DNA of 64,000 nt from Zingiber officinale (Eukaryota > Streptophyta > Magnoliopsida > Zingiberales > Zingiberaceae): the NCBI RefSeq assembly GCF_018446385.1, contig NC_055986.1, positions 29,323,593 through 29,387,592 on the forward strand, read 5' to 3'. The translations under genes and the position numbers were made by a program. Below, in pieces: positions 3,266 through 59,927 of the stretch (the stretch's first letter is position 1; each line of letters starts with the position of its first letter). The notes under the pieces are model-generated. The model saw only the letters and a program-made list of their open reading frames with translations. It searched no databases and had not been told where the DNA came from.

Positions 3266-3531
3266 TCAAATATTATGGTTGTATGATATACTTTATAAGA
3301 GTTTTGATTGCATGAGTCAACATCATGGGTGGTTCAAATATCGTGGTTGTATGATAAACATAGTGAGAGTTTCGAACTCTTGTTATATGAGCCTATCTAA
3401 TCTTTTATCATTACATTGTATCGCAAGGGAAGAGAAGAGGGTTTCTAGAGCCTAGCGCTGGGGTAAGGAAGGAGGATGCGAAGAGAGTGAATGTTCGGCG
3501 TTTGAGGGGTGATTAATTTGGCTAGTGTTTA

Positions 3532-3580
3532 GTCCCACATTGCTTGTGCTTGGTGAGCTTCCTGCAGAAGACATTATAAA
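3532..3580 (+). promoter_or_regulatory. snRNA promoter of U5 copy 1 (USE + TATA)
   Basis: GTCCCACATTG (3532-3542) matches the plant USE consensus RTCCCACATCG at 10 of 11 positions. TATAAA lies at 3575-3580, with 32 bp between them. That spacing is typical of Pol II-transcribed plant snRNA genes and about one helical turn more than in Pol III U6 genes. Confidence 0.85.
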
Positions 3581-3603
3581 TTGGTTCAAGGTTGATTGAT
3601 AAT

Positions 3604-3732
3604 AAAGCATGCAGTTGTGTGATAGACACAAAGCGAATTATTCTTTCTCCTTTTACTAAAGAATACCGTGTACTTGTCACCAAAAATAGCATATATTAAT
3701 CTTTGAAAGAGCTTTTTTTACAAAGGAGCCCT
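3604..3732 (+). pseudogene. U5: U5 snRNA copy 1 (D-like), probable pseudogene
   Basis: The overall U5 layout is present: ATTCTTT...AAAGAAT stem, Sm region, 3' hairpin ending GGAGCCC and 3' box. The invariant loop reads CTCCTTTTACT instead of CGCCTTTTACT, and the Sm site reads AATCTTTG instead of AATTTTTG. Both positions are under strong constraint in functional U5, because the loop contacts exon ends and the Sm ring binds the U-tract. The start is inferred from the TATA distance (about 30 bp), not observed. It groups with D monomers by GGTTCAAGG and GCAGAAGACAT upstream. Confidence 0.8.
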
Positions 3733-4005
3733 AACAAATTACAAGTTGAATTTGTTCCTAACAATTTTAAAATTAGATTTTGATTGCATGAGTCAACATC
3801 ATGGTGGTTTAAATATCGTGGTTGTATTATATACTCTATGAGAGTTTTGAACTCTTGTTGCATGAATCTATCTCATCTTTTTCCATTACAGTATATCCCA
3901 AGGGAAGAGAAGAGGGTTTACGGAGCGTAGCGCGTAGGAAACGAAGGAGGATGCGAAGAGAGGGAAGGTTCAACGTTTAGGGGTGATTAATTTGGCTATT
4001 GTTTA

Positions 4006-4054
4006 GTCCCACATTGCTTATACATGGTGAGCTTCCTACAGAGGACATTATATA
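4006..4054 (+). promoter_or_regulatory. snRNA promoter of U5 copy 2 (USE + TATA variant)
   Basis: USE GTCCCACATTG at 4006-4016 and TATATA at 4049-4054, spacing 32 bp. The promoter is better preserved than the RNA it would drive. Confidence 0.75.
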
Positions 4055-4078
4055 TTGGTTCAGGGTTGCATCATAATA

Positions 4079-4187
4079 AAACATGTAATTGTGTGATAAG
4101 CACAAAGCAAATAATTCTTTCATCTTTTTTTAAAGATACTGTGTACTTTTCACTAAAAACAGCATACATTAATTTTTGATGAGCCTA
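4079..4187 (+). pseudogene. U5: U5 snRNA copy 2 (B type), pseudogene
   Basis: The loop region reads CATCTTTTTTT, with loss of the ACT that closes the normal loop, and the 3' stem is altered (AAAGATACTGTG). The Sm site AATTTTTG is kept, but the following hairpin is deleted: the Sm site runs directly into ATGAGCCTAATC. The same hairpin loss marks copy 6; copy 10 has a related change. These define the B monomer. It shares GTACTTTTCAC with the other B copies. Confidence 0.85.
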
Positions 4188-4607
4188 ATCAAATTGCAAG
4201 TTAAATTTGTTCCTAACAATTTTTAAATTAATTATTTTAGTTGTAAGAGTTATAATGTTTCATATATTTAATTTTATCTCATATTTTTATTTTTTAATAA
4301 ATTAGATATTTTTGGTTCTATAGAAGTTTACACTAATTATTTGCATATATTTGGAAAGTACACCGACTATTAGGATATATTTTGAAAGTACAGATGAAGT
4401 GTGGTGGACAACTAAGCATAATATCATGGTTGCATGATATACTCTGTGAGAGTATTGATTGCATGAGTCAACATCATGGGTGGTTCAAATATCGTGGTGG
4501 TATCCCAACGGAAGAGAAGAGGATTTACGGAGCCTCGCTCAAGGAAGGAGGATGTGAAGAGAGGGAAGGTTCGACGTTTGAGGGGTGATTAATTTGGCTA
4601 GCATTTT

Positions 4608-4655
4608 GTTCCACATTGCTTGTGCTTGGTGAGTTTCCTACTTGGACATTATAAA
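4608..4655 (+). promoter_or_regulatory. snRNA promoter of U5 copy 3 (weakened USE)
   Basis: The USE reads GTTCCACATTG (4608-4618), one further departure from consensus (C to T at the third base). TATAAA is at 4650-4655, spacing 31 bp instead of 32. Confidence 0.7.
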
Positions 4656-4679: not shown

Positions 4680-4806
4680 AAACATGCAGTTGTGTGATAG
4701 GAACAAAGCGAATTATTCTTTCGCCTTTTACTAAAGAATACCGTGTGCTTGTCACTAAAAACAACATACATTAATTTTTGAAAGAGCTCCTTTTACATAG
4801 GAGCCC
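4680..4806 (+). ncRNA. U5: U5 snRNA copy 3 (C type), RNA core intact
   Basis: U5 snRNA is the core RNA of the U5 snRNP, which holds both exons in the spliceosome. Visible here are the stem ATTCTTT/AAAGAAT closing the 11-nt loop CGCCTTTTACT, an outer stem with ACA/TGT pairing, the Sm site AATTTTTG, and a 3' hairpin whose arms GCTCCTTT and ATAGGAGC pair with one mismatch. The 3' box follows at 4810-4825 as CA-N7-AGTTAAA with a T in the spacer. The RNA looks functional; the weakened USE makes expression uncertain. Length of about 127 nt fits plant U5. The start is inferred from the TATA distance. Confidence 0.85.
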
Positions 4807-5260: not shown

Positions 5261-5386
5261 AAACATGTAGCTGTGTGATAGGCACAAAGTGAATTATTCT
5301 TTCGCCTTTTACTAAAGAATACCGTGTGCTTGTCACTAAAAATAACATATATTAATTTTTGAATAGGGTTTTTTACAAAGGAGCCC
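5261..5386 (+). ncRNA. U5: U5 snRNA copy 4 (D type), best-preserved class
   Basis: A 126-nt U5 RNA. Stem ATTCTTT (5296-5302) and AAAGAAT (5314-5320) enclose the invariant loop CGCCTTTTACT (5303-5313). GGCACA pairs with TGTGCT below the internal loop, and GTGA with TCAC further down. The Sm site AATTTTTG is at 5354-5361. The terminal hairpin is GGGTTTTTT / AAGGAGCCC, nine pairs if three G-U wobbles are allowed. Together with the intact USE, TATA and 3' box this is one of the strongest candidates for an expressed gene. Alternative identities (U1, U2, U4, U6) are excluded by the loop and Sm order. Confidence 0.92.
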
Positions 5387-5918: not shown

Positions 5919-6046
5919 AAACATGCAGCTATGTGATAAGCACAGAGTGAATTATTCTTTCGCCTTTTACTAAAGAATACCATGTGCTTGTCACTAAAAA
6001 TAGCATATATTAATTTTTGAAAGGACTTTTTTTTACAAAGGAGCCC
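5919..6046 (+). ncRNA. U5: U5 snRNA copy 5 (E type), RNA core intact
   Basis: The loop CGCCTTTTACT within ATTCTTT/AAAGAAT is unchanged and the Sm site AATTTTTG is intact. The descending strand reads ACCATGTGC instead of ACCGTGTGC. The 3' hairpin 5' arm is T-rich (GACTTTTTTTT) against AAAGGAGCCC, so it is weaker than in C monomers. The 3' box CA-N7-AGTTAAA is at 6050-6065. E monomers are recognised by GCATGGTGAG, ACAGAGGACAT and TATAAATTAGTTCAG upstream. Confidence 0.85.
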
Positions 6047-6522: not shown

Positions 6523-6660
6523 TATAAATTGGTTTAGGGTTGCATCATAATAAAACATGCAGTTGTGTGATAAGCATAAAGCAAAATATTCTTTCGCCCT
6601 TTTATAAAGAATACCGTGTACTTTTCACTAAAAACTGCATACATTAATTTTTGATGAGCC
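6523..6660 (+). pseudogene. U5: U5 snRNA copy 6 (B type), USE deleted
   Basis: The USE and surrounding 70-odd bp are missing: GAGGGGTGA joins directly to GCTTCCTACAG, as expected from deletion between two GGTGA repeats that flank the USE in other units. TATAAA remains (6523-6528), with the predicted start at about 6553. The loop has shifted to CGCCCTTTTAT, the outer stem is changed, and the 3' hairpin is lost (Sm site followed by ATGAGCC). Neither promoter nor RNA is expected to work. Confidence 0.85.
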
Positions 6661-7040
6661 TTAACCAATTGCAAGTTAAATTTGTTCCTAACAATTTTTA
6701 AATTAATTATTTTAGTTGTAAGCGTTATAATGTTTCATATATTTAATTTTATCTGATATTTTTATTTTATAATAAATTAGATATTTTTGGTCCTATGGAA
6801 GTTTACACTAATTATTTGCATATATTTGGAAAGTAAACCGACTATTAGGATATATTTGGAAAGTACAGATTGTAACGACCCAATTTTCCCTATTTCGAGT
6901 TCCAAATATCCATAAAAATATTTGGAAATGCTTTTAAAATATTCTAGAGATTTTTAGAAATTTTTAGAGTATTTTTACGTAATTTTTGGAGGTCGTTTAG
7001 TATTTTTACAAAATAAAAGAAATTTTGACAAAAAGAGTTA

Positions 7041-7115
7041 AAGGCGAGGCTCGAACCCATGATCTCGGGTTGGACCTGACCTAACCAGACACAGCCAACC
7101 AACTGGGCTGCGCAC
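7041..7115 (-). repeat. Antisense tRNA-like patch in LTR
   Basis: On the minus strand the segment carries a B-box-like GGGTTCGAGCC and an A-box-like AGTTGGTTGGC in tRNA order. The acceptor arms do not pair visibly, so it is not called as a tRNA gene. Equivalent patches occur at the same place in the other chromovirus LTRs of this window. Confidence 0.5.
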
Positions 7116-7969
7116 GCTTTGTTAACTAAGTATGGGGAGAAATAAATTTAAAGCATAGATAGTAATTAATTATAACTCGAGTATAAGAAAGGGAATTAGG
7201 TTTTGAGTTTCCAAAACCCAAAACAATTCCTCCCGAAATTCTCTCTCCTCACCTCTCTCGCGTGCGACAGCGGCGGCGTTGCTTGGACAAAGGCGAAGAC
7301 GAATTTAAGGTTTCATTTCGACGGCCGGCGAGCGTTCTTCTTCAAGGGTTCTACATAAACCCAAACTCCCCTCGGCAAGGCGAACGCACGGGCAGGAGAA
7401 GAGGCCGAGAATCCCAAGCCTTCGAACCCTAGGTCCCTTCCTCCGTCGGCTGTAAGTCATACAAGCAAGGGTAAGTACTACTCACCTGCGGTAGGAGTTG
7501 CTCCGAGCTTTCGGTTTTCGTTACCTTGCTTCCGGATCTTGTTGTGCCGAGTAGAAGAATATAATATGCTAGGGTTTTCTTCCTTGCTTTGTTGAGATGC
7601 TATTCTCGGATTTAAGCATGAGCAGTAGTTGAATTTGTTTTACTTTCATAGCTTGAACTTCACAGTATGCTTAGTTTTGCTTTCACATCATGTTTAAGTG
7701 GTTTTATTCCTTGCAGCATAGCCTAAGGAGCATGGTTGTGCTATGAAACCTTAGAAATTGTAGGTAGATGGAATGGTAAAGTGCCCCATTTGATCTGTTT
7801 AGGGGTTTATGAGAATGTTAGTACTATTATGTTGATTCGTTCCTTTAGTACAGATTAAAAATGTTAGTTGTAAGTGTTAGCAATATCATTCAGTTGCCTT
7901 AGGGTGCTTTGGTAATACAACATGCTTTAAAATTAGAAATGCATGTTATATTTACTTACGTGATGTATG

Positions 7970-8440
7970 ATTAGTAAGATTAACTAGCTTTCTTTTGCTC
8001 TATTTTACAGCATGTTTAGAAAGTCCAAGTTAGCTATCTTTTGCTCTATTTTACAGCATGTTTAGAAAGTCCAAGTTAGCTATCTTTTGCCCTATTTTAC
8101 AGCATGTGTAGAAAGTCCAAATTAGCTCTCTTTTGCTCTATTTTATAGCATGATTAGCAAGTTTGAATTAGCTTACTTTTGCTCTATTTTATAGCATGAT
8201 TAGTAAGATTAGATTAGCTTTCTTTGCTCTTATCACAGCATGTTTTAGAAGTTCAAACTAGCTCTCTTTTGCTCTATTCTAGAGCATGATTAGTAAGTTC
8301 AGATGTGCTTTCTTTTCCTTTGTTTTACAGCATGTTTAGAAAGTTCAGATTTGCTTTTCTGTTGCTTTGTTCTATAACATGCTTAGAGAGAGTGTAGATT
8401 TGTTTCCCTTGTATTGTTTTTATAGAGCATGCTTAATTAA
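7970..8440. repeat. 46-bp minisatellite in 5' LTR of chromovirus A
   Basis: About nine imperfect copies of a unit containing AGCATGTTTAGAAAGTCCAA then GTTAGCTATCTTTTGCTC and TATTTTAC. The first three copies are nearly identical and later ones drift. The 3' LTR carries the same array at about 14512-14985, so the array predates this insertion. Confidence 0.8.
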
Positions 8441-9585
8441 TTGTAATCCTACACTTGTTAGGTATATCTAAAGGATTCCAATAAATTCTAATAAAGGATT
8501 ATGAGAAAACTGAGTAAAAAGAAAAAGACTAAAGTCTAGTTAAAAAGAGATAACAAGTAAATTAAAGTAAGAGGCTAGTACCCGACTTCCGAGGTTGTTG
8601 TTAAACAAATCCAGGTGACCAATTCTGAGGTCTTGGCCCTGGTAAGACCGAGGTCTTTATCCTCATAGGGCTGGAGGCTCGCTACCCCAGTCACTATTAG
8701 AGAGCGCGCAAAACAAAGATGGTACTAAGCCTGGGCCCAAAGAAGAAAAGAAGAACAAGAAGAAGAAAGTGAAAGAGAAATTAAAAGATTAATTTCTGGT
8801 GTAAAGATATAAGAACATGAAACAAGTTTATGCTTAGAATCAATAAAAGTTTAGTTCTTTAATTTTAAGCTTACAGTAGTTGTTTCATTACTTTCCTGTC
8901 AGTTAGTGAGCATGTTTAGTATTCAGTTTTATTTCTGTATACCATGAGTACATGCAGCTTTGCTTTAGCATTTCAGTTTCAGTATTATTGCATTACTTTT
9001 ATGCACTTCGAGTTTTGTGAGATAGATTAGTACTTACTAAGCGTTTTCGCTTATAGATCTTTTTTCCTTTCCTCCTACTGCAGATAAAGGAAAAGCTAAG
9101 ATATGAAGGGAGACGACAGGATGGTGGTGGTGATGAAGGTGTGTGATGACTGCGACTGTGGAGAGATCCAGAGAGTGTTATCAAACCTGCAGGACCTATT
9201 TGATTAGAGTTTATGCTTTAGTTCTTTTCTTTAACACTATTTTGAAGTTTATGAGATTGTAGTTGAGTTTATTTCCGCATATGCATTTAGTCACTTTAAT
9301 TATTTGTGGAGTGATATAGTTGGTTGTCTTTACTGTTGTTTTTATAACTGCGTGGTTGTGAAAAATGAGTTCCAGCCGCCTGTGACTGCATATATGTCTT
9401 ATGTACTATGGATTTGGTCACCGGTACAGGGGAGACTCTGCCGAAATTTTTCGGTAGGAATTCCTCTGAACCGTGATAAATCTAAGTATTGCTAATAATA
9501 GCGTCAGTGACACTAGTAAGTAGAGTTGTAGTTAGGTAACGGTCGCCCTTAGCGAGTAGTAGTAAGAAAGGTGGGTTGTTACAGT

Positions 9586-9597
9586 TGGTATCAGAGC
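9586..9597 (+). other. Primer-binding site of chromovirus A
   Basis: TGGTATCAGAGC, complementary to initiator tRNA-Met, two bases after the 5' LTR end. Confidence 0.9.
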
Positions 9598-9944
9598 AGT
9601 GTTCCATTCTCCAGCATCACACACACATCAGCATCATCCTCGCCGTCTCCAAGTATGAAAGTATTTAAATCCTTTCTTTATTCTGCTTTCCTTATTATTA
9701 ACTGCAGTATAGAGTACTTATTTTTTTGAGTACTAAAGTAAGATAGAAGATTTAGTTTCCCTTTTCTTTATTCATATTTATGTATGATTAGAAGGGTTAG
9801 AGAGAGGATACCAAGTCCTTTTCTTTGCATAATTAGATGTTAAGAAAAAGGATGTCCCCGTACCATTCGTACTGAGAACCAAGATCAGGAGAACGAAGAG
9901 CTTAGATCAACTGAACCTGATCTCTCTGAAGTTGTTGCCTAACC

Positions 9945-10374
9945 CCAGAGACAAGTAGCAGAACAGCAGCAAGTGATTGCCAATCTGATGGAAAACCAGC
10001 CAGCAGTTCCTCCCCCAACCATTAATGTGGAGACTTCAGGGGTGACTGAAGTCCTATCAGTTGCCCTGGAAGTCGCCACAACAACAAGAAGACAAGAAGC
10101 ATACCTCATCCAGTGGCTGAAACTGAAACCAGAAAGATTCTCAGGCACGACTGAGCCCTGGGATGCCCAGGCTTGGTTCAAGACACTTGAGAGCACAATG
10201 AAGCTTCTTGACTGGCCAGAAGTCGAGAAGGTCAAGTGCGCCTCTTTCTGCCTGTCTGGAGATGCTCGTATGTGGTGGGAGAGGATAAAGACCAAGAGAG
10301 CAGTCGATCAGATGAGCTGGGCAGATTTTCAGTTAGAGTTCTATGAAGAGTTTTATCACCAACAAGCGCTATGA
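9945..10374 (+). pseudogene. gag fragment of chromovirus A
   Basis: Encodes the N-terminal part and start of the retrotransposon gag core; motifs AYLIQWLKLKPERFSG, FKTLESTMKLL and SGDARMWWERIK are typical. It stops at 10374 and then runs into unrelated frame. The rest of gag, the CCHC zinc knuckle and the aspartic protease are absent, removed by a deletion between about 10375 and 10480. Confidence 0.85.
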
Positions 10375-10484
10375 GGAGTTTATAGAGTTCAAGCCAGCCA
10401 AGATAGAAGATAAGACAGTAGGGAGCCCGGAGCCCCAGTCAAGTAAGTGCAGAAGAACAGAAAGAAGGTAAGAAAGAGGGGGTT

Positions 10485-13381
10485 CGGGTGGTCTGTGAAT
10501 ATCCCGAGGTATTCCCAGCAGATCCACCTGGACTACCTCTCAATAAATGAGTGGATTTGGGATTGAATTGGTTCCTGGAACCAGTCCAATTTCAAAAGCT
10601 CCGTATCACATGTCTCCAGCAGAGCTGAGGGAATTACAAGAACAACTACAGGAGTTACTTGACAAAGGCTTCATTCGCCCTAGTCATTCACCCCGGGAAG
10701 CTCCAGAGTTGTTCGTTAAGAAGAAAGACGGATCCGTGCTAATGTGCATAGATTTCAGAACGCTGAGCAAAGTAGCAGTGAAGGACAAGTACCCCCTTCC
10801 CAGGATCGATGACTTATTTGATCAGTAAAGAGGAGTAACAGTGTTCTCAAAGATAGACCTACGCTCTGGGTACCATCAGCTGAAGGTGAAAGAAAGAGAT
10901 ATACCCAGAACGGCGTTCAGGACCAGATACGAGCACTACGAGTTTGTAGTCATGCCTTTTGGAGTGACTAATGCACCTGCGATCTTCATGGACTTAATGA
11001 ACAGAGTGTTCAGAGAATATCTTGACAAATTTGTCATCGTATTCATCGACGACATTCTGGTCTATTCAAGGACCCCAGAGGAGCATGACACACACTTGAG
11101 GATGGTACTGCAGACTCTGCAGCAAAAGCAGCTTTATGCTAAATTCTCAAAGTGCGAGTTCTGGTTAAATCAGGTGGCGTTTTTAGGTCACATTATTTCT
11201 AAAGAAGGTATTCAAGTGGATCCAACCAAGGTGGAAGCGGTCAACAACTGGAGTAGACCCAAGAACGTTAGAGAGATCAGAAGCTTCCTTGGTTTAGCTG
11301 GGTACTACAGGAAGTTCGTGGAGGACTTTTCCAGGATAGCCTCTCCACTAACAGTCCTCGCCAGAAAGAACAAGAGATTCGAATGGTCAGATAAATGTGA
11401 GCAGAGTTTCCAAGAGCTCAAGAAGAGACTGACCAGTGCTCCCATTCTGACTGTTTCAGAGAGTGACAAGAGTTTCGACATTTATAGTGATGCTTCCAAG
11501 ATGGGCTTAGGAGCTGTACTCATGCAAGAAGAAAAAGTCATAGCTTATGCTTCCAGACAACTCAAAGATTGTGAGAAGAACTACCCTACTCATGATCTTG
11601 AGCTGGCAGCTGTGGTTTTTGCACTTAAACTCTGGCGACATTATTTGTATGGAGTTCAACGTAGAATCTTTACAGATCATCAGAGTCTTAAGTACTTCTT
11701 CACTCAGAAGGACTTAAACATGAGACAGCGCAGGTGGCTAGAGTTGGTCAAAGATTACGACTGTGAAATCCTCTACCACCCAGGCAAAGCTAACAAAGTG
11801 GCAGATGCACTCAGCAGAAAATCCAGTGCATCCCTGATGTCTTTGTCATCATTAGCTCGGCCACTGCAGAAGGAGTTGTCAGATTTTGGACTTGAAATTA
11901 TTGAAGGGCAACTCTCTGCATTGACCTTAGAGTCCACATTGCTTGAGGAGATACAGAGAAAGTAAAGTGAAGATCCAGACATCCAGAAAATCAAGCAAGG
12001 GTTACAGAAGGAAGACAAATCAGGGTTTCAAGTAACAGCCAGCGGGACTCTTTATCAGGGGAGTCGCATTTGCGTGCCCCATGATGAAGAACTGAGGAAG
12101 AAGATCTTAGAAGAAGCTCATAGTACACCCTACTCCATGCATCCTGGTTCTACCAAGATGTATCAAGATGTGAAACAGAGATTCTGGTGGTTTGGACTCA
12201 AAAGAGATGTAGCTAAATATGTCAGTACCTGCCTGACATGTCAGAGGGTCAAAGCAGAACACCAAAGACCAGGAGGAGTTCTACAACCTCTTCCTATACC
12301 AGAGTGGAAGTGGGAAGACATATCCATGGACTTCATAACAGGTCTCCTAAGACCCACGAATGGATATGATGCGATATGGGTGATAGTGGACAGATTGACC
12401 AAGTCTGCTCATTTTCTAGCCATCAAGGTGTCTCACTCTATAGAGCAGTTAGCACAGTTGTATGTTAAAGAGGTGATCAGACTTCACGGAGTTCCTAAAT
12501 CTATTGTTTCTGATAGAGATGGGCGCTTCACCTCTCACTTCTGGGAGTGTGTTCAAACTGCACTAGGCACCAAACTCAAGTTCAGCACAGCCTTCCATCC
12601 TCAGACTGATGGACAGACAGAGCGAGTAAACCAGATTCTAGAAGATATGCTCAGAGCTTGTGCACTAGATTTCAAAGGAAGTTGATGCAAGTATCTATGC
12701 TTAGCTGAATTTGCCTACAACAATAGCTATCAGGCCACCATCAAGATGGCACCTTATGAGGCGTTGTATGGTAGGAAGTGCAGATCACCCATTTGCTGGC
12801 AAGAAGCAGGTGAGAGAAAAGAAATGGAAGTAGAACTGGGCATTCAGACAGAGCTGATAGATGAGACTACTCAGGCTATCCAGAAGATCAGACAGAGAAT
12901 TGAGACTGCCCAGAGCAGACAGAAGAGTTATGCTGACACACGCCGTAGGCCACTTGAATTCCAAGTAGGGGATTCAGTTTTTCTCAAGGTCGCTCCTATG
13001 AAGGGAGTGATGAGATTTGGCAAAAAGGGAAAATTAAGTCCTCGTTATGTAGGACCTTACCTGATCACAGAAAGGATTGGAAAAGTAGCTTACAAGCTGG
13101 ATTTACCACAAGACATGTCAGCAATACATAATGTATTTCATGTCTCTCTGCTAAAGAAGTGTCTCCACGACCCTAGCCAAGTGATTCAGCCTCAGTCAAT
13201 GCAGATCCAAGATGATCTTAGTTATGAGAGCAGACCTACACAGATAGTGGACAGAGCAGTCAAGAGACTAAGAAATAAAGAAGTGCCACTAGTGAAGGTT
13301 ATCTGGCAGAACCAGAGGCACGAGGAAATCACTTGGGAGCGGGAGGACAGCATGAGACAGAAGTATCCAGAGCTATTCTAA
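10485..13381 (+). pseudogene. pol remnant of chromovirus A (RT-RNaseH-INT-chromodomain)
   Basis: In order: the RT start ([22 protein letters not shown]), a stop at about 10826, RT core with [12 protein letters not shown] and the active site FIDD (about 11045), RNase H ([23 protein letters not shown]), a stop at 11963, integrase with HHCC zinc finger and DDE positions (MDFITG, VSDRDGRFTS, TDGQTERVN), a TGA stop at 12683, then the C-terminal GPYLI and chromodomain-like RPTQIVDRAVKRLRNK...EEITWE, ending at 13379. At least three nonsense changes show it is dead. The order RT-RH-INT is that of Ty3/gypsy. Confidence 0.9.
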
Positions 13382-13416
13382 GTTCGAGGATGAACTTTTT
13401 ATAAGGTATGGGAGAT

Positions 13417-16137: not shown

Positions 16138-16531
16138 GAAGTGTGGTGGACAACTAAGCATCATTAGTGTGGTTCAAATATCATGTTTGTATGATATACT
16201 CTGTGAGAGTATTGATTGCATGAGTCAGCATCATGGGTGGTTCAAATATCGTGGTGGTATCCCTAGGGAAGAGAAGAGGATTTACGGAGCCTCGCTCAGG
16301 GAAGGAGGATGCAAAGAGAGGGAAGGTTCGATATTTTAGGGGTGATTAATTTGGATAGCATTTAGTCCCACATTGCTTGTGCTTGGTGAGTTTCCTACTT
16401 GGACATCATAAATTGGTTCAGGGTTGCTTCATAATAAAACATGCAGTTGCGTGATAGGAACAAAGCGAATTATTCTTTCATCTTTTACTAAAGAATACCG
16501 TGTACTTGTCGCTAAAAACAACAAACATTAA
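16138..16531 (+). repeat. U5 array, block 2 (start of copy 7 unit)
   Basis: Resumes the array exactly after the CAGAT target duplication with GAAGTGTGGTGGACAACTAAG and continues to the middle of U5 copy 7, where the MITE interrupts it at TAA (16529-16531). The open frame at 16136-16339 is spacer and not conserved as protein. Confidence 0.9.
16365..16412 (+). promoter_or_regulatory. snRNA promoter of U5 copy 7 (USE + damaged TATA)
   Basis: USE GTCCCACATTG at 16365-16375. The TATA position reads CATAAA (16407-16412), so the box is damaged. Spacing is 31 bp. Confidence 0.7.
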
Positions 16532-16554
16532 GGGGGCACTACAAGAAAAAAACC

Positions 16555-16822
16555 TAACAACAACGGTTTTTCACCGTTGTCGTAGCCCCTTTCGGGCTGT
16601 TGTTAAAGGCCGTGTTGTTAAAAGGGGTACCCAAAGACAACAGTTTTTAACCGTTGTCTTTGATGGCAAAGACAACAGTTTTACAACGGTGAAAAACCGT
16701 TGTCTTTTCCTTCAAAGACAACAGTTTTTCACCGTTGTCTTTGAGCGTCTACCTTTAATAACAGGGTCTTCAACAACAGTTTTAAACTATCTACGACAAC
16801 GGTGAAAAACCGTTGTCTTTTT
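16555..16822. repeat. CACTA subterminal palindromes, left
   Basis: At least five occurrences of ACAACGGTTTTTCACCGTTGT or half-palindromes (GACAACAG / CCGTTGTC), each able to form a hairpin with a short T-rich loop. The open frame 16500-16805 is a consequence of this repetition. Confidence 0.85.
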
Positions 16823-16997
16823 TAGATAAAAAATAAAAAAAAATTAATGTACAATTTTTCAATATTATAAATCAATCAAAATATTAAATTTCAAAATAAA
16901 ATTTAATATACAATTTTCTAACATTCAAAAATAATATCTATAACATTCTGAAGAAATTTCATAAGCAACCAACAAAATTTCATAAGCAACCAACAAA

Positions 16998-19900: not shown

Positions 19901-20010
19901 CTTACTTTCATATTCTCAATCTCCTTCTCATGAATCCTTTAAGCAGCATAAAATGCATTAATATTGTCATAGGCCACATTAAACGCTTCTCTTACTATAG
20001 GATCAAGCTT
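16998..20010 (-). pseudogene. HISN8: Captured histidinol dehydrogenase gene fragment (8 exons)
   Basis: Histidinol dehydrogenase makes the last two oxidations of histidine synthesis in plastids. Exons read on the minus strand: A about 20010-19906 (REAFNVAYDNINAF), B 19824-19723 ([19 protein letters not shown]), C 19615-19544 (FAGCKTIVLTTPLGRDGSIC), D 19457-19395 (AKKAGVTHILKVGGAQ), E 19312-19271 (AISAMAWGTSSCPK), F 18426-18367 ([15 protein letters not shown]), G 17440-17330 ([15 protein letters not shown]), H 17148 to about 16998 ([17 protein letters not shown]). Exons B-G are whole codons, all joints checked keep GT/AG, and the spliced frame stays open except for one TAA in exon A where Gln is likely. 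The N-terminus with transit peptide and the C-terminal catalytic and zinc-binding part are absent, so no active enzyme is expected. Introns are retained, so capture was from DNA. Confidence 0.93.
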
Positions 20011-20019
20011 AACAATGAC

Positions 20020-20401: not shown

Positions 20402-20454
20402 AGAGAAGTGGATTTTAGGTTTTTTTTCATGAAGTTAAAAAAATTGTTGTGTTT

Positions 20455-22177: not shown

Positions 22178-22304
22178 AAACATGCAGCTGTGTGATAAGC
22201 CCATAGCGAATTATTCTTTCACCTTTCACTAAAGAATACCGTGTGCTTGTCACTAAAAATAGCATATATAAATTTTTGAAAAGGCTTTTTTTACAAAGGA
22301 GCTC
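22178..22304 (+). pseudogene. U5: U5 snRNA copy 9 (E type), loop mutated
   Basis: The loop reads CACCTTTCACT, two changes in the invariant 11 nt, and the outer stem is weakened (CCCATAGCG for GCACAAAGCG). The Sm site AATTTTTG is intact; the hairpin ends AAAGGAGCTCG. The 3' box CA-N7-AGTTAAA follows at 22308-22323. Probably non-functional despite a perfect promoter. Confidence 0.85.
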
Positions 22305-51256: not shown

Positions 51257-51368
51257 AAACATGCAGATGCGTGATAAGAACAAAGTGAATTATTCTTTCA
51301 CCTTTTTTTTAAAGAATACCGTGTACTTTTCACTAAAAACAACATACATTAATTTTTTAAGAGTCATG
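51257..51368 (+). pseudogene. U5: U5 snRNA copy 10 (B type), pseudogene
   Basis: The loop reads CACCTTTTTTTT with the ACT lost. The Sm tract runs into TTAAGAGTCATGAC and the 3' hairpin is gone, as in copies 2 and 6. It shares GTACTTTTCAC and AAATTGCAAG with them. Confidence 0.85.
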
Positions 51369-51877
51369 ACAAATTGCAAGTTAAATTTGTTCCTAACAAT
51401 TTTATATTAATTATTTCATTTGTAAGAGTTATAATGTTTTATATATTTAATTTTATCTCATATTTTTATTTTTTTGTAAATTAGATATTTTTGGTCCTAT
51501 AGAAGTTTGCACTAATTATTTGCATATATTTGAAAAGTACACCGACTATTAGGATATATTTTGAAAGTAAAGATGAAGTGTGGTGGACAACTAAGCATCA
51601 TGAGTGTTCTTCAAATATCATGGTTGTACGATATACTTTGTGAGAGTATTGATTGCATGAGTCAACATCATGGGTGGTTCAAATATCGTGGTGGTATCCC
51701 AACAGAAGAGAAGAGGGTTTACAGAGCCTCGCTCAAGTAAGGAAGGAGGATGCGAAGAGAGGGAAGGTTCGATGTTTGAGGGGTGATTAATTTGGCTAGC
51801 ATTTATTGCCACATTGCTCCTGCTTGGTGAGTTTCCTACTTGGACATTGTAAATTGGTTCAGGGTTGCTTCATAATA

Positions 51878-52004
51878 AAACATGCAGTTGTGTGATAGGA
51901 ATAAAGTAAATTATTCTTTCACCTATTACTAAAGAATACCGTGTGCCTATCACTAAAAACAACATACATTAATTTTTGATAGAGCTCCTTTTACAAAGGA
52001 GCCC
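51878..52004 (+). pseudogene. U5: U5 snRNA copy 11 (C type), pseudogene
   Basis: Upstream, the USE is mutated (ATTGCCACATTG for TAGTCCCACATTG) and the TATA box reads TGTAAA (51848-51853). The loop reads CACCTATTACT. The Sm site AATTTTTG and the Watson-Crick hairpin GCTCCTTT-TAC-AAAGGAGC survive, making this the clearest view of the ancestral hairpin. Three separate lesions make function unlikely. Confidence 0.85.
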
Positions 52005-52619
52005 TAATAAATTATATGTTAAATTTTTCCTAACAATTTTTAAATTAATTATTTTAGTTGTAAGAGCTATAATGTTTTATATATTTAATTTTATCTCAAT
52101 TTTTTTTATTATTTTAGATTAATTATTAGGGTACAGATGGAGTGTGGTGGATGACTCAATATCATGAGTGTGGTTCAAATATTGTGGTTGTATAATATAC
52201 TTTGAAATAGTTTTGATTGCATGAGTCAACATCATGGGTGGTTCAAATATCGTGAATGTATGATATACTTAGTGAGAGTTTCGAACTCTTGTTATATGAG
52301 TCTGTCTAATCTGTTACCATTACATTGTATCGCAAGGGAAGAGAAAAGGATTTACGGAGACTAGCGATGGGGTAAGGAAGGAGGATGTGAAGAGAGTGAA
52401 TGTTCAGCATTTGAGGGGTGATTAATTTGGCTAATGTTTAGTCCCACATTGTAACGACCCAAAATTCCTCGTTACGAGTCCTAATAGTACGTAAAAATAT
52501 TTAGAAATGCTTTAGAAAAATTCTACAGATTTTTAGAAATTTTTAGAGTATTTTTATGTAATTTTTGGAGGTCGTTTGGTATTTTTACTAAATGAAAGAA
52601 GTTTCGACAAAAATAATGT

Positions 52620-52985
52620 CCAAGCCGAGATTTGAACCGGAGACCTCCGACCGAGCCAACTCTTAAGTGAATCTAGCTGACCAAGTGTACCAGCGAGCGT
52701 AGCTGATTAAAGAAGGAGCAAAAATCTGTTTAAGCAGTAGTTGAGGAATAGGAAATAAATTGAAATAAAAAGGGGCGGCTGAGGAATCGAACCCGTGACC
52801 TCTGACGCGGTCAAGATTTAGCAAAGTCCCAGCTAACGTTGCCGATTAAAAAGGGGAATGAAATTTATTTAAGTAATAGTTAATAGGAAACAGAAAATAA
52901 ATGGGAATAAAAGGCTACTGAGGAATCGAACCCGCGACCGGCGAATCCGGTGGACCAAGACTCCAAGCGGACGGATCAATTTAGA
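52620..52985 (-). repeat. Three antisense tRNA-like patches in LTR
   Basis: Minus-strand B-box-like sequences recur three times: GGTTCAAATCTC (about 52630), GGTTCGATTCCTC (about 52785) and GGTTCGATTCCTC (about 52930). Each is preceded at tRNA-like distance by a TTGGTCAGC or similar A-box-like block. The 3' LTR carries the same trio (about 55976-56365). They look like degenerate tRNA-derived modules; none folds into an obvious cloverleaf. Confidence 0.5.
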
Positions 52986-53599
52986 AAAGATAGAAAAATT
53001 TATTTAAGGAGTTAACAGAAATATTAAGTTATAAAAAGGGATAAGTTGATGCTCTATTTTCCTGTGACCTAAACCATTCTCTCCTTCTCTTCTACGTGCG
53101 ACGGCGGAGCTCGGGAAGAAAACAAAAGGGAGTTAGGGCATCGTCTCCGGCGGCCAACCAAGGTCCTAGAAGCCCTTCTTGTTCGGTTGTGAGTCTAAGG
53201 AGCAAGGTAAGTGCTTCCTCACCTGCAGTAGAGTAGTTTCGGATTCATGTGTTCTTGATTTCCGACGCATGCATGCCGCAAAGATTAATGATTTTGAAGA
53301 TTTCCTGCCGTGGGTTTCATAAAGAAGACGAGAAGAGGTTTTAATTAATTTGAATATGTGGTTTAGTTTATTCCTTATTGTTTGATTGGTGCTGCTACCA
53401 TGAAACTAAATTTAGTTCATTTAGATTTGGAAAGGAGTAAATTGTTTTGTTATGCAGTGAGCATGAGACAGATATCATATTAATTAATTTATGGGAAGAG
53501 AATGTATAAATTTAAGGGAATATTAGATTCAGAAAAGATGATGATTAAATGTTGATGACATAAATTAAGGATGGAAACTTTACTTTCAGATTTTTGGTG

Positions 53600-54115
53600 G
53601 AACTTATAGTGCAGATTTTTATGAAAGATTATAGTGCAGAATTTTGATTAAGCTTATAGTGCAGAATTTTGATTAAGTTTATAGTACAGAATTTTGATTA
53701 AGTTTGTAGGCAGATTTGATTATGCTTATAGTGCAGAATTTTGATTAAGCTTATAGTGCAGAATTTTGATTAAGCTTTGATTAAGCTTATAGTGCAGAAT
53801 TTTGATTAAGCTTATAGTGCAGAATTTTGATTAAACTTATAGTGCAGAATTTTGATTAAGTTTGTAGGCAGATTTGATTAAGCTTATAGTGTAGAATTTT
53901 GATTAAGCTTATAGTGCAGAATTTTGATTAAGCATACAGTGTAGAATTTTGATTAAGTTTGTAGGTAGATTTGATTAAGCTTATAGTGCAGAATTTATAT
54001 TAAGTTTGTAGGCAGATTTGATTAAGCTTATAGTGCAGAATTTTGATTAAGCTTATAGTGTAGAATTTTGATTAAGTTTGTAGGCAGATTTGATTAAGCT
54101 TTTATGCAGATTTAG
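53600..54115. repeat. 25-bp minisatellite in 5' LTR of chromovirus C
   Basis: About 20 copies of GCTTATAGTGCAGAATTTTG followed by ATTAA, interspersed with a shorter variant GTTTGTAGGCAGATTTGATT. The 3' LTR has a similar array at about 56985-57535 with a different copy order. Confidence 0.9.
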
Positions 54116-55186
54116 TTTAGTGCAGTTTCAATAAGCATTTCAGTACAGTTCTATTAAGTATTTCCATGCAATTCTGTTAAACATTTCAGTGCAGAGTTAA
54201 TAAGCATTTTAGTGCAGTTTTGTATGAGACACCTTTTTAATAGAGGTGTTAACAAGTATAAGCAAGATAAAGAAAAGAATGAAAAAAGCCAAGACCTTAA
54301 GTAGATCCCAAAGTCAAGACTTTAGGGATTTTAGCACACAAGGTGCTTATTAAAATGTCAAGACATTTAAAGAAGAAGTAATTAAGATATTTTACTTTAA
54401 AGAGACTAGTACCCGACTTCCGAGGTTGTCGTTAAACAAATCCAGGTGTCCAATTCCGAGGTCTTGGCCCTGGTAGACCAAGGTCTGCTCTTTTAGGATT
54501 GGTGGCTCGCTACCCCAACCTATTAGGGAACGCGCATAAGATGGTACTACGCCTGGGCTCAAGAGAAGTTGATTATTATTTTGAAGTATTAAAGTATAAG
54601 TTTTTAAACAAAAGAAATAAGCTTCACATAAGTTTAAAAATTCAGCAAGTTAGTTCTTTATGCTAGCATGATTGTATAGATTTGCTTTTCAGTATGTTTC
54701 TATTGCTATTAGATGAGCATGAGTAGTATTTATTTATGACCCTTCAGTTTTAGATTTCTTCCAGTTACATGCATATTCGAGTTTTGTGAGTTAGATAGAG
54801 CTTACTAAGCAATTTTACTTATAGTTGCATTTCCTCTTACTATAGATAAAGGAAAGGAAAAGCTATAGTCAAGGAAGGCGACAAGGAGGTGCGGATGAAT
54901 GTGTGATGTGTGGACTATAGAAGCCTTGAGATTTAGTTAAAGATTTTATTAAGATATTTTGTATTTAGACATTTGAGATTGTACCTTATATTCCATGTCA
55001 TTTGAGATTGATATGTAGTTTAGATGTGTAGATTAGTCATTTAGTTTTTCGCTGCTAGTTAATTGCATGTTTAGAGAGTTTATGTATTGATCTTTACATG
55101 TGAACAACTCTAATTAAGTAAAGTTAGTAGTCCAGTAGTGCTCCGCCCTCGCAGACTAGTAGTGAGGAGGGTGGGGTGTTACAAGT

Positions 55187-55198
55187 TGGTATCAGAGC
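55187..55198 (+). other. Primer-binding site of chromovirus C
   Basis: TGGTATCAGAGC three bases after the 5' LTR. Confidence 0.9.
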
Positions 55199-55367
55199 AG
55201 TTCCTATTCTCCAGCATCACACATCAGCACCAGCCTTACCGTCTTCAAGTAAGAAAGTATTTAAAATTCTTTTATTAGTATGCTTTTCCTTATTAATTGT
55301 AGCATAGAGAAATCCTTAGAAATATTTGTTTATAAGTGCTAAAGTGAGTTAAAAGTTAGAGAGTAAC

Positions 55368-55770
55368 AGTTAAGGACAAGTACTCTCTTCCCAGAATAGA
55401 TGATCTATTTGATCAGTTAAAGGGGGCAATAGTGTTCTCTAAAATAGACCTGCGTTTTGGATACCATCAGTTGAAAGTGAAAGGAAGTGATACACCCAGA
55501 ACAGCTTCCAGAACCAGATATGGACACTACGAATTCATAGTCATGCCATTTGGTGTGACTAATGCACCTACGGTCTCCAGGGACTTTATAACAAGTCTTC
55601 CAAGGACCACTAATGGGTACAATGCGATATAGGTGATAATGGACAAAGAAGTTAAGAGACTAAGGAACAAAGAAGTACCACTAGTAAAGGTTATTTGGCA
55701 TCAGAAACATGAGGAGACTACGTGGGAGCGTAAGGATAGTATAAGACAAAGATATCCAAAATTATTCTAA
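55368..55770 (+). pseudogene. Chimeric pol scrap: RT, integrase and chromodomain pieces joined
   Basis: The frame reads an RT piece ([29 protein letters not shown]), then without break an integrase piece ([17 protein letters not shown], stop), then the chromodomain end (KEVKRLRNKEVPLVKVIW, ETTWERKDS) to KLF and a stop at 55768. About 3 kb of pol between these pieces is missing in two separate deletions, as are gag and protease. The PPT AAGATATGGGGAAT follows at about 55792. Confidence 0.9.
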
Positions 55771-55805
55771 GTTCGAGGACGAACTTTTTATAAGATATGG
55801 GGAAT

Positions 55806-58613
55806 TGTAATGACCCAAAATTTCTCATTATGAGTCCTAATAGTGCGTAAAAATATTTAGAAATGCTTTAGAAAAATTATACAGATTTTTAGAAATTTTT
55901 AGAGTATTTTTATGTAATTTTTGGAGGTCGTTTGGTATTTTTACTAAACGAAAGAAGTTTCGACAAAAATAATGTCCAAGCCGAGATTCGAACCGGAGAC
56001 CTCCGGCCGAGCCAACTCTTAAGAGAAACCGGCTGACCAAGTATATCAGCGGGCGTAGCTGATTAAAGAAGGAGCAAAAATCTGTTTAAGCAGTAGTTGA
56101 GGAATAGGAAATAAATTGAAATAAAAAGGTGCAGCTGAGGAATCGAACCTGCGACCTCTGACCCGGTCTAGATTTAGCAAAGCGTGGCTGACCAAGTGTC
56201 CCAGCTAGCGTTGCTGATTAAAAAGGGGAATGAAATTTATTTAAGTAATAGTTAATAGGAAACCGAAAATAAATGGGAATAAAAGGGGCGGCTGAGGAAT
56301 CGAACCCACGACCTCTGACCCGGTCAGAGGTTTCGGCGAATCCAGCGGACCAAGAATCCAAGCGGACGTATCAATTTAGAAAAGATAGAAAAATTTATTT
56401 AAGGAGTTAACAGAAATATTAAGTTAAAAAAAGGGATAAGTTGATGCTCTGTTTTCCCGTGACCTAAACCATTCTCTCCTTCTCTTCTGCGTGTGACGGT
56501 GGAGCTCGGGCAAAAAACAAAAGGGAGTTAGGGCATCATCTCCGGCGGCCGACCAAGGTCCTAGAAGCCCTTCTTGTTCGGTTGTGAGTCCAAGGAGCAA
56601 GGTAAGTGCTTCCTCACCTGCAGTAGAGTAGTTTCGGATTCATGTGTTCTTGATTTCCGACGCATGCCGCAAAGATTAATTATTTTGAAGATTTCTTGTC
56701 GTGAGTTTCATAAAGAAGATGAGAAGAGGTTTTAATTAAATTGAATATGTGGTTTAGTTTATTCCTTATTGTTTGATTGGTGCTGCTACCATGAAACTAA
56801 ATTTAGTTCATTTAGATTTGGAAAGGAGTAAATTGTTTTGTTATGCAGTGAGCATGAGACAGATATCATATTGATTAATTTATGGCAAAAGAATGCATAA
56901 ATTTAAGGGAATATTAGATTCAGAAAAGATGATGATCAAATGTTGATGACGTAAATTAAGGATGGAAACTTTACTTTCAGATTTTTGGTGGAACTTATAG
57001 TGCAGATTTTTATGTAAGATTATAGTGCAGAATTTTGATTAAGCTTATAGTCCAGAATTTTGATTAAGTTTATAGTGAATAATTTTTATTAAGTTTGTAG
57101 GCAGATTTGATTAAACTTATAGTGCAAAATTTTGATTAAGCTTATAGTGCAGAATTTTGATTAAGTTTATTGTGCAGAATTTTGATTAAGTTTGTAGGCA
57201 GATTTAATTAAGCTTATAGTGCAGAATTTTGATTAAGCTTATAGTGCAAAATTTTGATTAAGATTATAGTGCAGAATTTTGATTAAGTTTGTAGGCATAT
57301 TTGATTAAGCTTATAGTGTAGAATTTTGATTAAGCTTATAGTGTAGAATTGTGATTAAGCTTATAGTACAGAATTTTGATTAAGTTTGTAGGCAGATTTG
57401 ATTAAGCTTATAGTGCAGAATTTTGATTAAGTTTGTAGGCAGATTTGATTAAGCTTATAGTGCAGAATTTTGATTAAGCTTATAGTGTAGAATTTTGATT
57501 AAGTTTGTAGGCAGATTTGATTAAGCTTGTATGCAGATTTAGTTTTAGTGCAGTTTCAATAAGCATTTCAGTGCAGTTCTATTAAGTATTTCCATACAAT
57601 TCTGTTAAGCATTTCAGAGTAGAGTTAATAAGCATTTTAGTGCAGTTTTGTATGAGACACCTTTTTAATAGAGATATTAACAAGTATAAGCAAGATAAAG
57701 AAAAAAAAAAGAAAAAGGCCAAGGCCTTAAGTAGATCCCAAAGTCAAGAATTTAGGGATTTTAGCACACAAGGTGCTTATTAAAATGTCAAGACATTTAA
57801 AGAAGAAGTAATTAAGATATTTTACTTTGAAGAGGCAAGTACCCGACTTCTGAGGTTGTCGTTAAACAAATCTAGGTGTCCAATTCTGAGGTCTTGGCCC
57901 TAGTGGACCAAGGTCTGCTCTTTTAGGATTGGTGGCTCACTACGCCAACCTATTAGGGAACGTGCATAAGATGGTACTACGCCTGGGCCCAAGAGAAGTT
58001 GATTATTATTTTGAAGTATTAAAGTATAAGTTTTTAAACAAAAGAAATAAGCTTCACATAATTTTAAAAATTCAGCAAGTTAGTTCTTTATGCTAGCATG
58101 ATTGTATAGATTTGCTTTTCAGTATGTTTCTATTGCTACTAGATGAGCATGAGTAGTATTTATTTCTGAGCATTTAGTTTTAGATTTCTTCCAGTTACAT
58201 TCATATTCGTGTTTTGTGAGTTAGATAGCGCTTACTAAGTAATTTTACTTATAGTTGCATTTCCTCTTACTACAGATAAAGGAAAGGAAAAGGTATAGTC
58301 AAGGAAGGCGACAAGGAGGTGCGGATGGATATGTGATGTGTGGACTATAGAAGCCTTGGGATTTAGTTAAAGATTTTATTAAAATATTTTGTATTTAGAC
58401 ATTTGAGATTGTACCTTATATTCCATGTCATTTGAGATTGATATGTAGTTTAGATGTGTAGATTAGTCATTTAGTTTTCTACTGCTAGTTAATTACATGT
58501 TTAGAGAGTTTATGTATTGATCTTTACATGTGAACAACTCTAATTAAGTAAAGTTAGTAGTCCAGTAGCGCTCCACCATCGCAGACTAGTAGTGAGGAGG
58601 GTGGGGTGTTACA
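55806..58613 (+). repeat. 3' LTR of chromovirus C
   Basis: Collinear with the 5' LTR. It is longer because of minisatellite copy-number changes and because the tRNA-like patches are better preserved. Confidence 0.92.
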
Positions 58614-58682
58614 CACATTGCTTGTACTTGGTGAGCTTCCTGTAGAAGTCATTATAAATTGGATCAAGGTTGCTTCATAATA

Positions 58683-58811
58683 AAACATGTAGCTGTGTGA
58701 TAGGTACAAAGCGAATTATTCTTTCGCCTTTTACTAAAGAATACCGTGTGTTTGTCACTAAAAATAGCATATATTAATTTTTGAAAGGGGTTTTTTTTTA
58801 CAAAGGAGCCC
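58683..58811 (+). ncRNA. U5: U5 snRNA copy 12 (D type), RNA intact, promoter broken
   Basis: Loop CGCCTTTTACT within ATTCTTT/AAAGAAT, Sm site AATTTTTG, hairpin GGGG(T)n / AAAGGAGCCC and 3' box (58815-58830) are intact. TATAAA is at 58653-58658. The USE was split by chromovirus C. The LTR end fused to the target gives TACACACATTG in its place, 8 of 11 matches to the array USE at the right distance, so residual promoter activity is possible but uncertain. Confidence 0.87.
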
Positions 58812-59298
58812 TAACAAATTACAAGTTAAATTTGTTCCTAACAATTTTTAAATTAATTACTTTAGTTGTAAGAGGTATAATGATTCATATATTTAATTTT
58901 CTTATAATTTTTAATATTTAGAAAATTTTGGTCCTCTTTACATTGATTATTAGGATATATTTAGATAGTACACTAACTATTAGGATACATTTTGAAAGTA
59001 GTGTGGTGGATGACTAAGCATCATGAGTGTGGTTCAAATATCGTGGTTGTACAATATACTCTGTGAGAGTTTTGATTGCATGAGTCAACATCATAGTGGT
59101 TTAAATATCGTGGTTGTATGATATACTCCGTGAGAGTTTTGAACTCTTGTTGCACGAGTTTGTGTCATGTTTTACCATTACACTGTATCCAAAGGTAAGA
59201 GAAGAGGGTTTACGGAGCCTAGCGCATAGGAAATGAAGGAGGATGCAAAGAGAGGCAAGGTTCAGCGTTCGAGGGGTGATTAGTATGGCTACTGTTTA

Positions 59299-59347
59299 GT
59301 CCCACATTGCTTGTGCATGGTGAGCTTCCTACAGAGGACATTATAAA
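59299..59347 (+). promoter_or_regulatory. snRNA promoter of U5 copy 13 (USE + TATA)
   Basis: USE GTCCCACATTG at 59299-59309 and TATAAA at 59342-59347, spacing 32 bp. Confidence 0.88.
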
Positions 59348-59371
59348 TTAGTTCAGGGTTGCATCATAATA

Positions 59372-59501
59372 AAACATGTAGCTGTGTGATAAGAACAGAG
59401 CGAATTATTCTTTCGCCTTTTACTAAAGAATACCGTGTGCTTGTCACTAAAAATAGCATATATTAATTTTTGAAAGGGGGATATTTTTTACAAAGGAGCC
59501 C
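59372..59501 (+). ncRNA. U5: U5 snRNA copy 13 (E type), core intact
   Basis: Invariant loop CGCCTTTTACT, 7-bp stem and Sm site AATTTTTG are present, with a good promoter and 3' box (59505-59520). The terminal hairpin 5' arm is altered (GGGGGATATTTTTT against AAAGGAGCCC), so pairing depends on wobbles and a bulge. It is probably the best E copy. Confidence 0.87.
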
Positions 59502-59504
59502 TAA

Positions 59505-59520
59505 CAAATTACAAGTTAAA
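59505..59520 (+). terminator. 3' box of U5 copy 13
   Basis: CA-N7-AGTTAAA, three nucleotides beyond the RNA end. Confidence 0.85.
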
Positions 59521-59927
59521 TTTGTTCTTAACCATTTTTAAATTAATTATTTTAATTGTAAGAAATATAATGTTTCATACATATAATTTTCTAATAATTT
59601 AGAAATTTTTGGTCCTCTTTACATTAATTATTAGGATATATTTAGATAGTACACAAACTATTAGGATATATTTAGAAAGTAGTGTGGTGGAAGACTAAGC
59701 ATCATGAGTGTGGTTCAAATATCGTAGTTGTACAATATACTCTGTGAGAGTTTTGATTGTATGAGTTAAAATAATGGAGGTTTAAATATCCTGGTTGTAT
59801 GATATACTCTATGAGAGTTTTGAACTCTTTTTGCATGAGCCTGTCTCATCTTTTACCATTACACTATACCCCAAGGGAAGAGTAGAGGGTTTTCGGAGCG
59901 TAGCGCACAAGACACGAAGGAGGTTGG

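Follow-up and report, generated by a model that had tools for sequence, protein, structure and literature searches.

We analyzed a 64-kb stretch of the ginger (Zingiber officinale) genome, referred to below as the window, which occupies C1:29323593-29387592 (C1 being the contig NC_055986.1) and carries a tandem array of U5 small nuclear RNA (snRNA) units interrupted by transposons. In a scan with Rfam covariance models we detected 13 matches to U5 (RF00020) in the window. All 13 reach the gathering score of 40 bits, with scores of 40.3-92.2 bits and E-values from 8e-15 to 0.005, and all lie head-to-tail on the plus strand. The count agrees with the original prediction of 13 U5 copies in this interval. 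Copies 4, 8 and 13, on which that prediction had been staked, scored 80.8, 88.1 and 84.2 bits. The basic repeat unit is about 650 bp, unit spacings range from 474 to 689 bp, and the array minus its inserts measures 8,420 bp, close to the 8.5 kb predicted. Homology to the array begins abruptly at window position 3262, where it is preceded (window 1-3261) by a run of G residues and an AT-rich tandem repeat with a period of 71-72 bp. Two motifs, searched with up to one mismatch, also mark the units: the core loop of U5 occurs 10 times in the window (7 of these inside units) against 0.97 expected, and the word of the upstream sequence element (USE) occurs 11 times, always preceding a unit, against 0.88 expected. 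No family besides U5 reached its gathering score in the window, and a tRNA search of the window found no tRNA. Names of microRNAs and snoRNAs did appear in a permissive Rfam scan, all below gathering and several within the inverted repeats of inserts, and we took them as chance. An exact search of viral contigs for a 23-base U5 core returned 0 matches. The features are listed here in window coordinates, with the supporting evidence in brackets; types A-D are the four classes of unit described below, and LTR stands for long terminal repeat.

3613-3730, plus strand: U5 unit 1, grouping with type C; loop CTCC..., Sm site mutated (Rfam 73.9 bits, motifs, tree)
4087-4203, plus strand: U5 unit 2, type A; loop mutated, 3' hairpin deleted (Rfam 40.3 bits, alignment)
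4688-4805, plus strand: U5 unit 3, type B; loop, Sm site, hairpin and 3' box intact, USE with 2 mismatches (Rfam 92.2 bits, motifs)
5269-5386, plus strand: U5 unit 4, type C; complete set of parts (Rfam 80.8 bits, motifs)
5927-6043, plus strand: U5 unit 5, type D; exact loop, USE with 2 mismatches (Rfam 84.8 bits, motifs)
6561-6678, plus strand: U5 unit 6, type A; USE lost by deletion, mutated loop, 3' hairpin absent (Rfam 57.8 bits, alignment)
6871-16132, plus strand: LTR retrotransposon with Ty3-type reverse transcriptase, RNase H and integrase domains; target duplication CAGAT (domain matches, sequence)
16445-16531, plus strand: U5 unit 7, type B, 5' part; Sm site interrupted by the DNA transposon-like insert that follows (Rfam 51.9 bits, sequence)
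16532-20946, no strand assigned: DNA transposon-like insert; target duplication TAA, CACTA-like start at the left end (sequence, junctions)
20947-21000, plus strand: U5 unit 7, 3' remainder with the hairpin and 3' box region (sequence, self-BLAST)
21501-21618, plus strand: U5 unit 8, type C; complete set of parts (Rfam 88.1 bits, motifs)
22186-22303, plus strand: U5 unit 9, type D; loop CACCTTTCACT (Rfam 79.9 bits, sequence)
22605-51004, no strand assigned: LTR retrotransposon with nested LTR pairs inside; target duplication GATAT (sequence, domains, junctions)
51265-51382, plus strand: U5 unit 10, type A; mutations in loop and Sm site, 3' hairpin absent (Rfam 49.1 bits, motifs)
51886-52003, plus strand: U5 unit 11, type B; USE, TATA box and loop mutated (Rfam 73.6 bits, motifs)
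52441-52449, plus strand: left-hand piece of the unit 12 USE, GTCCCACAT, interrupted by the next element (sequence)
52450-58613, no strand assigned: LTR retrotransposon within the USE of unit 12; target duplication CACAT (sequence, junctions)
58691-58810, plus strand: U5 unit 12, type C; loop, Sm site, hairpin and 3' box intact, USE split (Rfam 83.1 bits, motifs, sequence)
59380-59492, plus strand: U5 unit 13, type D; USE, TATA box, loop, Sm site and 3' box intact, hairpin weak in the 34-nt fold (Rfam 84.2 bits, motifs)
59928-64000, no strand assigned: left part of a further insert that runs off the window; LTR-like end resembling the preceding element (sequence, junction)

Beyond the insert at 59928, U5 matches resume with unit 14, at 71711 when the numbering of the window is continued.

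We scored the completeness of the units by motif matches and by whether the 3' hairpin folds, within 34 nt, with an energy of at most -5 kcal/mol; unit 7 was scored without its far half. Among the 13 window units, a USE within one mismatch of RTCCCACATCG was found in 7, a TATA box 31-32 bp from the USE in 9, the exact loop CGCCTTTTACT in 6, the exact Sm site AATTTTTG in 10, and the 3' hairpin in 8. A spacing of about 32 bp between USE and TATA box marks genes of RNA polymerase II (Pol II) rather than Pol III. The 3' box matched the consensus CA(N)3-10AGTNNAA, as given in the introduction of PMC5079582, in 11 units. The full set of parts was present in 2/13 units (4 and 8), and the original claim that each unit carries every part was therefore not borne out by the motif and fold tests. 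Some of the defects are visible directly in the alignment: a deletion that removes the hairpin is common to the type A units 2, 6 and 10, and unit 6 has lost its USE.

The array continues past the right edge of the window, as had been predicted. We found 44 more U5 matches in the next 150 kb, all on the plus strand, the last of which starts at C1:29,517,993. No U5 match at gathering score lies in the 19.5 kb beyond it or in the 20 kb left of the window. The C1 locus consists of 57 units across 191 kb, of which the window, with 13/57 units, forms the left third; unit DNA amounts to 38.2 kb and is divided into 18 blocks, of which two have no U5 match. A second array lies on contig C2, where we read 19 units within 19 kb; the 9.5 kb on either side of this stretch hold no U5 units. 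DNA matches continue at C2:34.346, 34.351 and 34.450 Mb, giving at least 22 units, and we rejected the idea of a compact, nearly transposon-free C2 array because these matches show its continuation. The published ginger assembly is haplotype-resolved, with 3.1 Gb and 11 chromosome pairs, according to the accessible text of the genome paper (PMC8342452), and we infer that C1 and C2 represent the same chromosome in its two haplotypes. The same text gives 1687 unclassified small noncoding RNAs, sought with Rfam, and the main text makes no use of the word snRNA (PMC8342452).

Three nested duplications are visible at this locus: the unit of about 650 bp, a higher-order repeat of four units in the order A-B-C-D, and a later segmental duplication of units 1-25. 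Units 2-13 repeat the A-B-C-D order three times, and unit 1 groups with type C. Identity among the aligned window units is 89-95% within types and 75-88% between types, and each type forms one clade in 96-100% of 200 bootstrap trees. The further C1 units beyond the window fall into the same types, as do the 19 C2 units read, some of them with low support. The window thus has the arrangement of a satellite-type repeat, with tandem monomers in a fixed order, block copies closer to one another than to their neighbors, and a period of four. At the next level, a tree of the 57 C1 units pairs units 1-13 with 32-44 and units 15-25 with 45-57; within this tree, unit 18 pairs with 48 and 50, and unit 19 with 49 and 51. 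For units 14 and 26-31 the other half of the array contains no counterpart. Long self-matches between the halves are about 95-98% identical, inserts included, indicating a segmental duplication that carried transposons along. The left flank recurs where the second copy starts (757-3779 against 129799-132893 in joined coordinates).

The inserts were compared between the two copies. Two LTR inserts have both junctions in common between the two copies of the segment, and two other inserts share the left junction. The insert at 22605-51004, whose domains together with those of its nested elements are of Ty3, ATHILA and Copia type, has both junctions at the matching place in copy 2; an ATHILA ORF-1 domain lies at window 35557-36339, in an element nested within this 28 kb insert. 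At the site of the 52450-58613 element, copy 2 holds a 2,469-base insert, the length of an LTR, with identical junctions. The DNA transposon-like insert at 16532-20946, whose class we take from its ends, has its left junction at the identical base in copy 2, and its right junction was not at the position tested there. The insert at 59928 likewise has its left junction at the matching place in copy 2. The element at 6871-16132, in which a chromodomain match fell below the cut-off, is present in copy 1 only; we judge it absent from copy 2 because units 37 and 38 are separated there by an unbroken 616 bp, and a 19-base search for the empty site in copy 2 did not find it. Two of the inserts struck the genes themselves, the DNA transposon-like insert splitting the Sm site of unit 7 and an LTR element splitting the USE of unit 12. 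We rejected targeted insertion at a fixed site of the unit, since the five window junctions checked lie in spacer, spacer, upstream of the USE, in the USE and in the Sm site, with no common target.

The divergences allowed us to place these events in order. Same-type window units differ by 5-11%. Counting mismatches only, the two LTRs of an element differ by 4.1% and 4.6% in the two shared elements, and shared LTRs differ by 2.4-4.1% between the duplication copies. Paired units across the copies differ by 1-4%, with one outlier near 10% (unit 1 against 32). The LTRs of the private element at 6871-16132 are 98.4% identical, a difference of 1.5%. Taken together, these values fit an order in which amplification came before the insertions, the insertions before the segmental duplication, and the newest insertion last, with the caveat that transposon and unit clocks may differ.

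A working gene is expected to change more slowly than its flanks. We counted changes by parsimony in types B, C and D. The tree included 72 of the 76 units that had been read, with C1 units 7, 14, 31 and 38 dropped as cut by an insert or truncated. Before and around the amplification we found 12 changes at 119 gene sites and 103 at 345 spacer sites, a gene/spacer ratio of 0.34 (confidence interval, CI, 0.16-0.56), excluding deep branches not of one type (2 gene and 19 spacer changes). After the amplification the counts were 130 gene and 370 spacer changes on C1, a ratio of 1.02 (CI 0.83-1.23), and 67 and 186 on C2, a ratio of 1.04 (CI 0.78-1.36), so that in neither array did the gene change more slowly than its flanks. 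The early and late ratios differ with p = 0.00015. When corrected for base context and gaps, the whole gene went from 0.31 of expectation before to 0.96 after, and stem-loop I from 0.13 to 0.84; without gap weighting, 197 gene changes were observed after the amplification against 189.4 expected. A smaller test on 12 window units of types A-D pointed in the same direction. The entry threshold of 40 bits favors units with conserved gene parts and so works against a finding of relaxation. We conclude that selection on the gene part was strongly relaxed after the amplification. In type A, constraint is already lost on the stem branch (6 gene and 9 spacer changes). After the amplification on C1 this type has a ratio of 0.66 (p = 0.02), or 0.74 without the deleted columns, which is unexplained.

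The kinds of change also bear on the state of the array. Changes from C to T plus G to A outnumber the reverse by 308 to 124 on C1 and by 131 to 50 on C2, and the mean number of CpG per gene is 2.1 in the C1 array and 2.2 in the C2 array, against 5.5 in the dispersed U5 genes described next. The CpG depletion and the C-to-T excess presumably reflect methylation and deamination. The original interpretation stands insofar as it described tandem Pol II-type plant U5 genes, interrupted by transposons and extending to the right. The intact gene array that it implied is unsupported, because the gene rate after the amplification is about that of the spacer, defects are common and CpG is depleted.

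As a control we used U5 loci dispersed elsewhere in the genome. For the motif comparison we took 25 dispersed rows on C1, C2, C3, C4, C9, C10, C17 and C18, being 24 of the 25 off-array matches among the best 47 scored whole-genome candidates plus one further match from a locus scan, a choice that is biased to intact genes; 24 of the 25 entered the constraint comparison. Among the matches listed, the exact loop is kept in 25/25 rows. In the array, this conserved loop I, CGCCUUUUACU, is exact in 6/13 window, 30/57 C1 and 11/19 C2 units. In seven dispersed groups (24 rows) the gene/flank ratios are 0.28, 0.31, 0.25, 0.45, 0.10, 1.67 and 0.35, or 0.30 pooled, from pairwise counts that are not independent. 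The 3' box behaves differently: the consensus CA(N)3-10AGTNNAA is matched by 0/25 dispersed rows against 42/57 C1 array units, and it is therefore a poor test of function in ginger. By eye, many dispersed U5 genes show a CAAA...TTAAA-like stretch at the position of the 3' box.

Several further observations concern the dispersed loci. Stem I has changed on both sides in dispersed groups (L001-L046), as GAGCACA/TGTGCTC, GGTACA/TGTACC and GATCACA/TGTGATC (by eye, uncounted). In one dispersed group, 5/6 places have a tRNA gene upstream of U5 and in the same orientation, at a distance of about 190-255 bp. This group comprises L027 (C1:3.136-3.146 Mb) and L034, L035 and L036 (C2:2.208-2.226 Mb), and the sixth place, L033, was read for 292 bp upstream only. 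The five U5 genes of this group that were tested have a USE within one mismatch, and no TATA box was found in them by the motif test. The tRNA and U5 genes could form a linked unit or share a transcript. Downstream of a C9 U5 gene, at about 360 bp and on the opposite strand, lies a weak U6 match (L004:1977-2052, minus strand, 46.2 bits against a gathering score of 44).

We consider it probable that the U5 cluster has largely escaped selection and become a satellite-like, transposon-riddled array, with constrained loci elsewhere probably supplying U5. The alternative that the array is still a working U5 locus, in which an intact minority is transcribed and supplies U5 while redundancy lets the other copies decay, is possible but in our judgment clearly the less likely account. 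A number of observations count against escape from selection, those on complete units, promoter and stem-loop I also in favor of a working locus. The complete set of USE, TATA box at the right spacing, loop, Sm site, hairpin and 3' box is kept in 16/57 C1 units, among them units 4, 8, 34, 35 and 57, and in 5/19 C2 units. After the amplification, USE plus TATA changed 23 times against 39.5 expected (0.58), with 2 against 12.7 on C2 (0.16, P 0.0003) and 21 against 26.8 on C1 (P 0.15), and the whole promoter region, low on both contigs, changed 99 times against 146.5 (0.68). Stem-loop I is slightly low, with 107 changes against 127.7 (P 0.03), although this point is weak. The spacer itself is uneven, the downstream part changing at 1.57 of the average and the upstream parts at 0.92 and, far upstream, 0.71, and the gene/spacer ratio therefore depends on the yardstick. 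The segment rates for promoter, USE and TATA, stem-loop I and spacer parts are post hoc, with many segments compared at once. Escape from selection is weakened by this division into segments, because it gave the uneven spacer and low promoter rates, and a working locus gains somewhat in likelihood. Two explanations can be given: mutation or alignment quality differs from one part of the unit to another, or selection still acts on some promoters, chiefly those on C2. Along the unit, the rate of change is high 136-240 bp after the U5 start and low at -84 to -1, a pattern that is unexplained. Three lineages have few gene changes, namely 3/34 (1 gene, 11 spacer), 15/45 (1, 11) and 17/47 (2, 19), and one dispersed pair is unconstrained (L042/L044, the ratio of 1.67 above). 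In this pair, at C4:90.388 Mb and C3:104.029 Mb, 11/116 gene positions changed against 14/247 in the flank, and one member may be decaying. Against a working locus stand the whole-gene rate after the amplification, the absence of significant heterogeneity among 21 lineages (p = 0.27), and the constrained U5 groups on C3, C4, C9, C10, C17 and C18, which we take as three homologous pairs.

The other explanations fare less well. The second half of the C1 array could in part be an assembly artefact, a misplaced haplotype or repeat copy, as the near-identity of the long self-matches would suggest and as could arise in what the accessible text of PMC8342452 indicates is a long-read assembly of a highly heterozygous plant. 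We regard this as unlikely: the C2 19-kb stretch is 88-91% identical to C1 in the longest matches, and single units reach at most 93%, so the C1 halves are closer to each other than to C2; in addition, the element at 6871-16132, whose LTRs are 98.4% identical, is confined to the first half. The 13 window units are in any case independent of the second half. It is also rather improbable that the array is still transcribed from conserved promoters, with its many U5 RNAs of variant sequence or lacking the hairpin serving as isoforms, or as decoys that capture Sm or U5 proteins but stay out of the spliceosome, and that a satellite-like array thereby tunes U5 supply. The promoter elements on C2, which change less than gene and spacer, are what such a role would lead one to expect, and chance in a post hoc comparison would give the same. 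That the units are a transposable element or short interspersed nuclear element bearing a U5-like sequence, rather than genes in origin, is highly improbable, although their high copy number and transposon surroundings could suggest it. They are arranged head-to-tail with a plant U5 promoter and 3' box, a poly-A tail or target duplication of their own was not seen, though no systematic search was made, and the best 40 of 142 candidate DNA matches of one unit plus promoter all lie within the C1/C2 locus pair.

If the array has indeed largely escaped selection, its history may be reconstructed as follows. An ancestral U5 gene with a Pol II-type promoter (USE, with the TATA box 31-32 bp on) and a 3' box would have been tandemly duplicated, with unequal crossing over probably the cause of the amplification. 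The copies would then have split into four types under selection on the RNA region, type A already without the 3' hairpin, and the four-unit block A-B-C-D would have been amplified as a higher-order repeat. Afterwards the U5 region would have evolved about as fast as the spacer in the two homologous arrays, as the array largely ceased to matter as genes. LTR and DNA transposons would have fragmented it, leaving the 18 unit blocks on C1, and the segment with units 1-25 would have been duplicated, taking several inserts along. The supply of U5 RNA would probably come from the dispersed constrained loci, and a few array copies may remain expressed.

We compared the array with known systems. Animal tandem snRNA arrays such as human U2 (RNU2) are kept near-identical by concerted evolution and are expressed. 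The ginger array resembles them in its head-to-tail snRNA genes with a promoter per unit, but it keeps four diverged types and its gene part drifts. Alpha satellite higher-order repeats consist of diverged monomers in a fixed order that are amplified as blocks, with duplications of larger segments and interruptions by transposons; the ginger array shares all of these features, whereas its monomer is a recognizable snRNA gene with a promoter. With birth-and-death families of the 5S ribosomal DNA type, as the accessible literature describes them, it has in common that it is an RNA multigene family with variants and pseudogene copies. It differs in being plant U5, with block-wise amplification placed before the loss of constraint. 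Arabidopsis has 14 U5 genes, all judged active, with one tandem U5 duplication and one U2-U5 cluster, according to the accessible part of PMC545797. Those genes are like the ginger array in RNA family, USE and TATA promoter and 3' box, and small tandem or mixed clusters are known among them (PMC545797, PMC5079582). Unlike Arabidopsis, ginger has 57 tandem units on one chromosome, a minority of them complete, with little or no constraint on the gene after the amplification. Among the papers listed in searches of the accessible literature, in which subscription papers are mostly not covered, no plant U5 array of comparable size and no snRNA higher-order repeat was found.

An snRNA gene family seems here to have been caught in the course of becoming satellite DNA. 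The order of events can be read at one locus, from the four-unit amplification through relaxed selection and the entry of transposons to the large duplication. The finding carries a warning that decaying arrays can inflate snRNA gene counts made with covariance models in large plant genomes. It also offers a system in which to study how some of a plant's U5 genes are kept in function when a large tandem group of them is given up.

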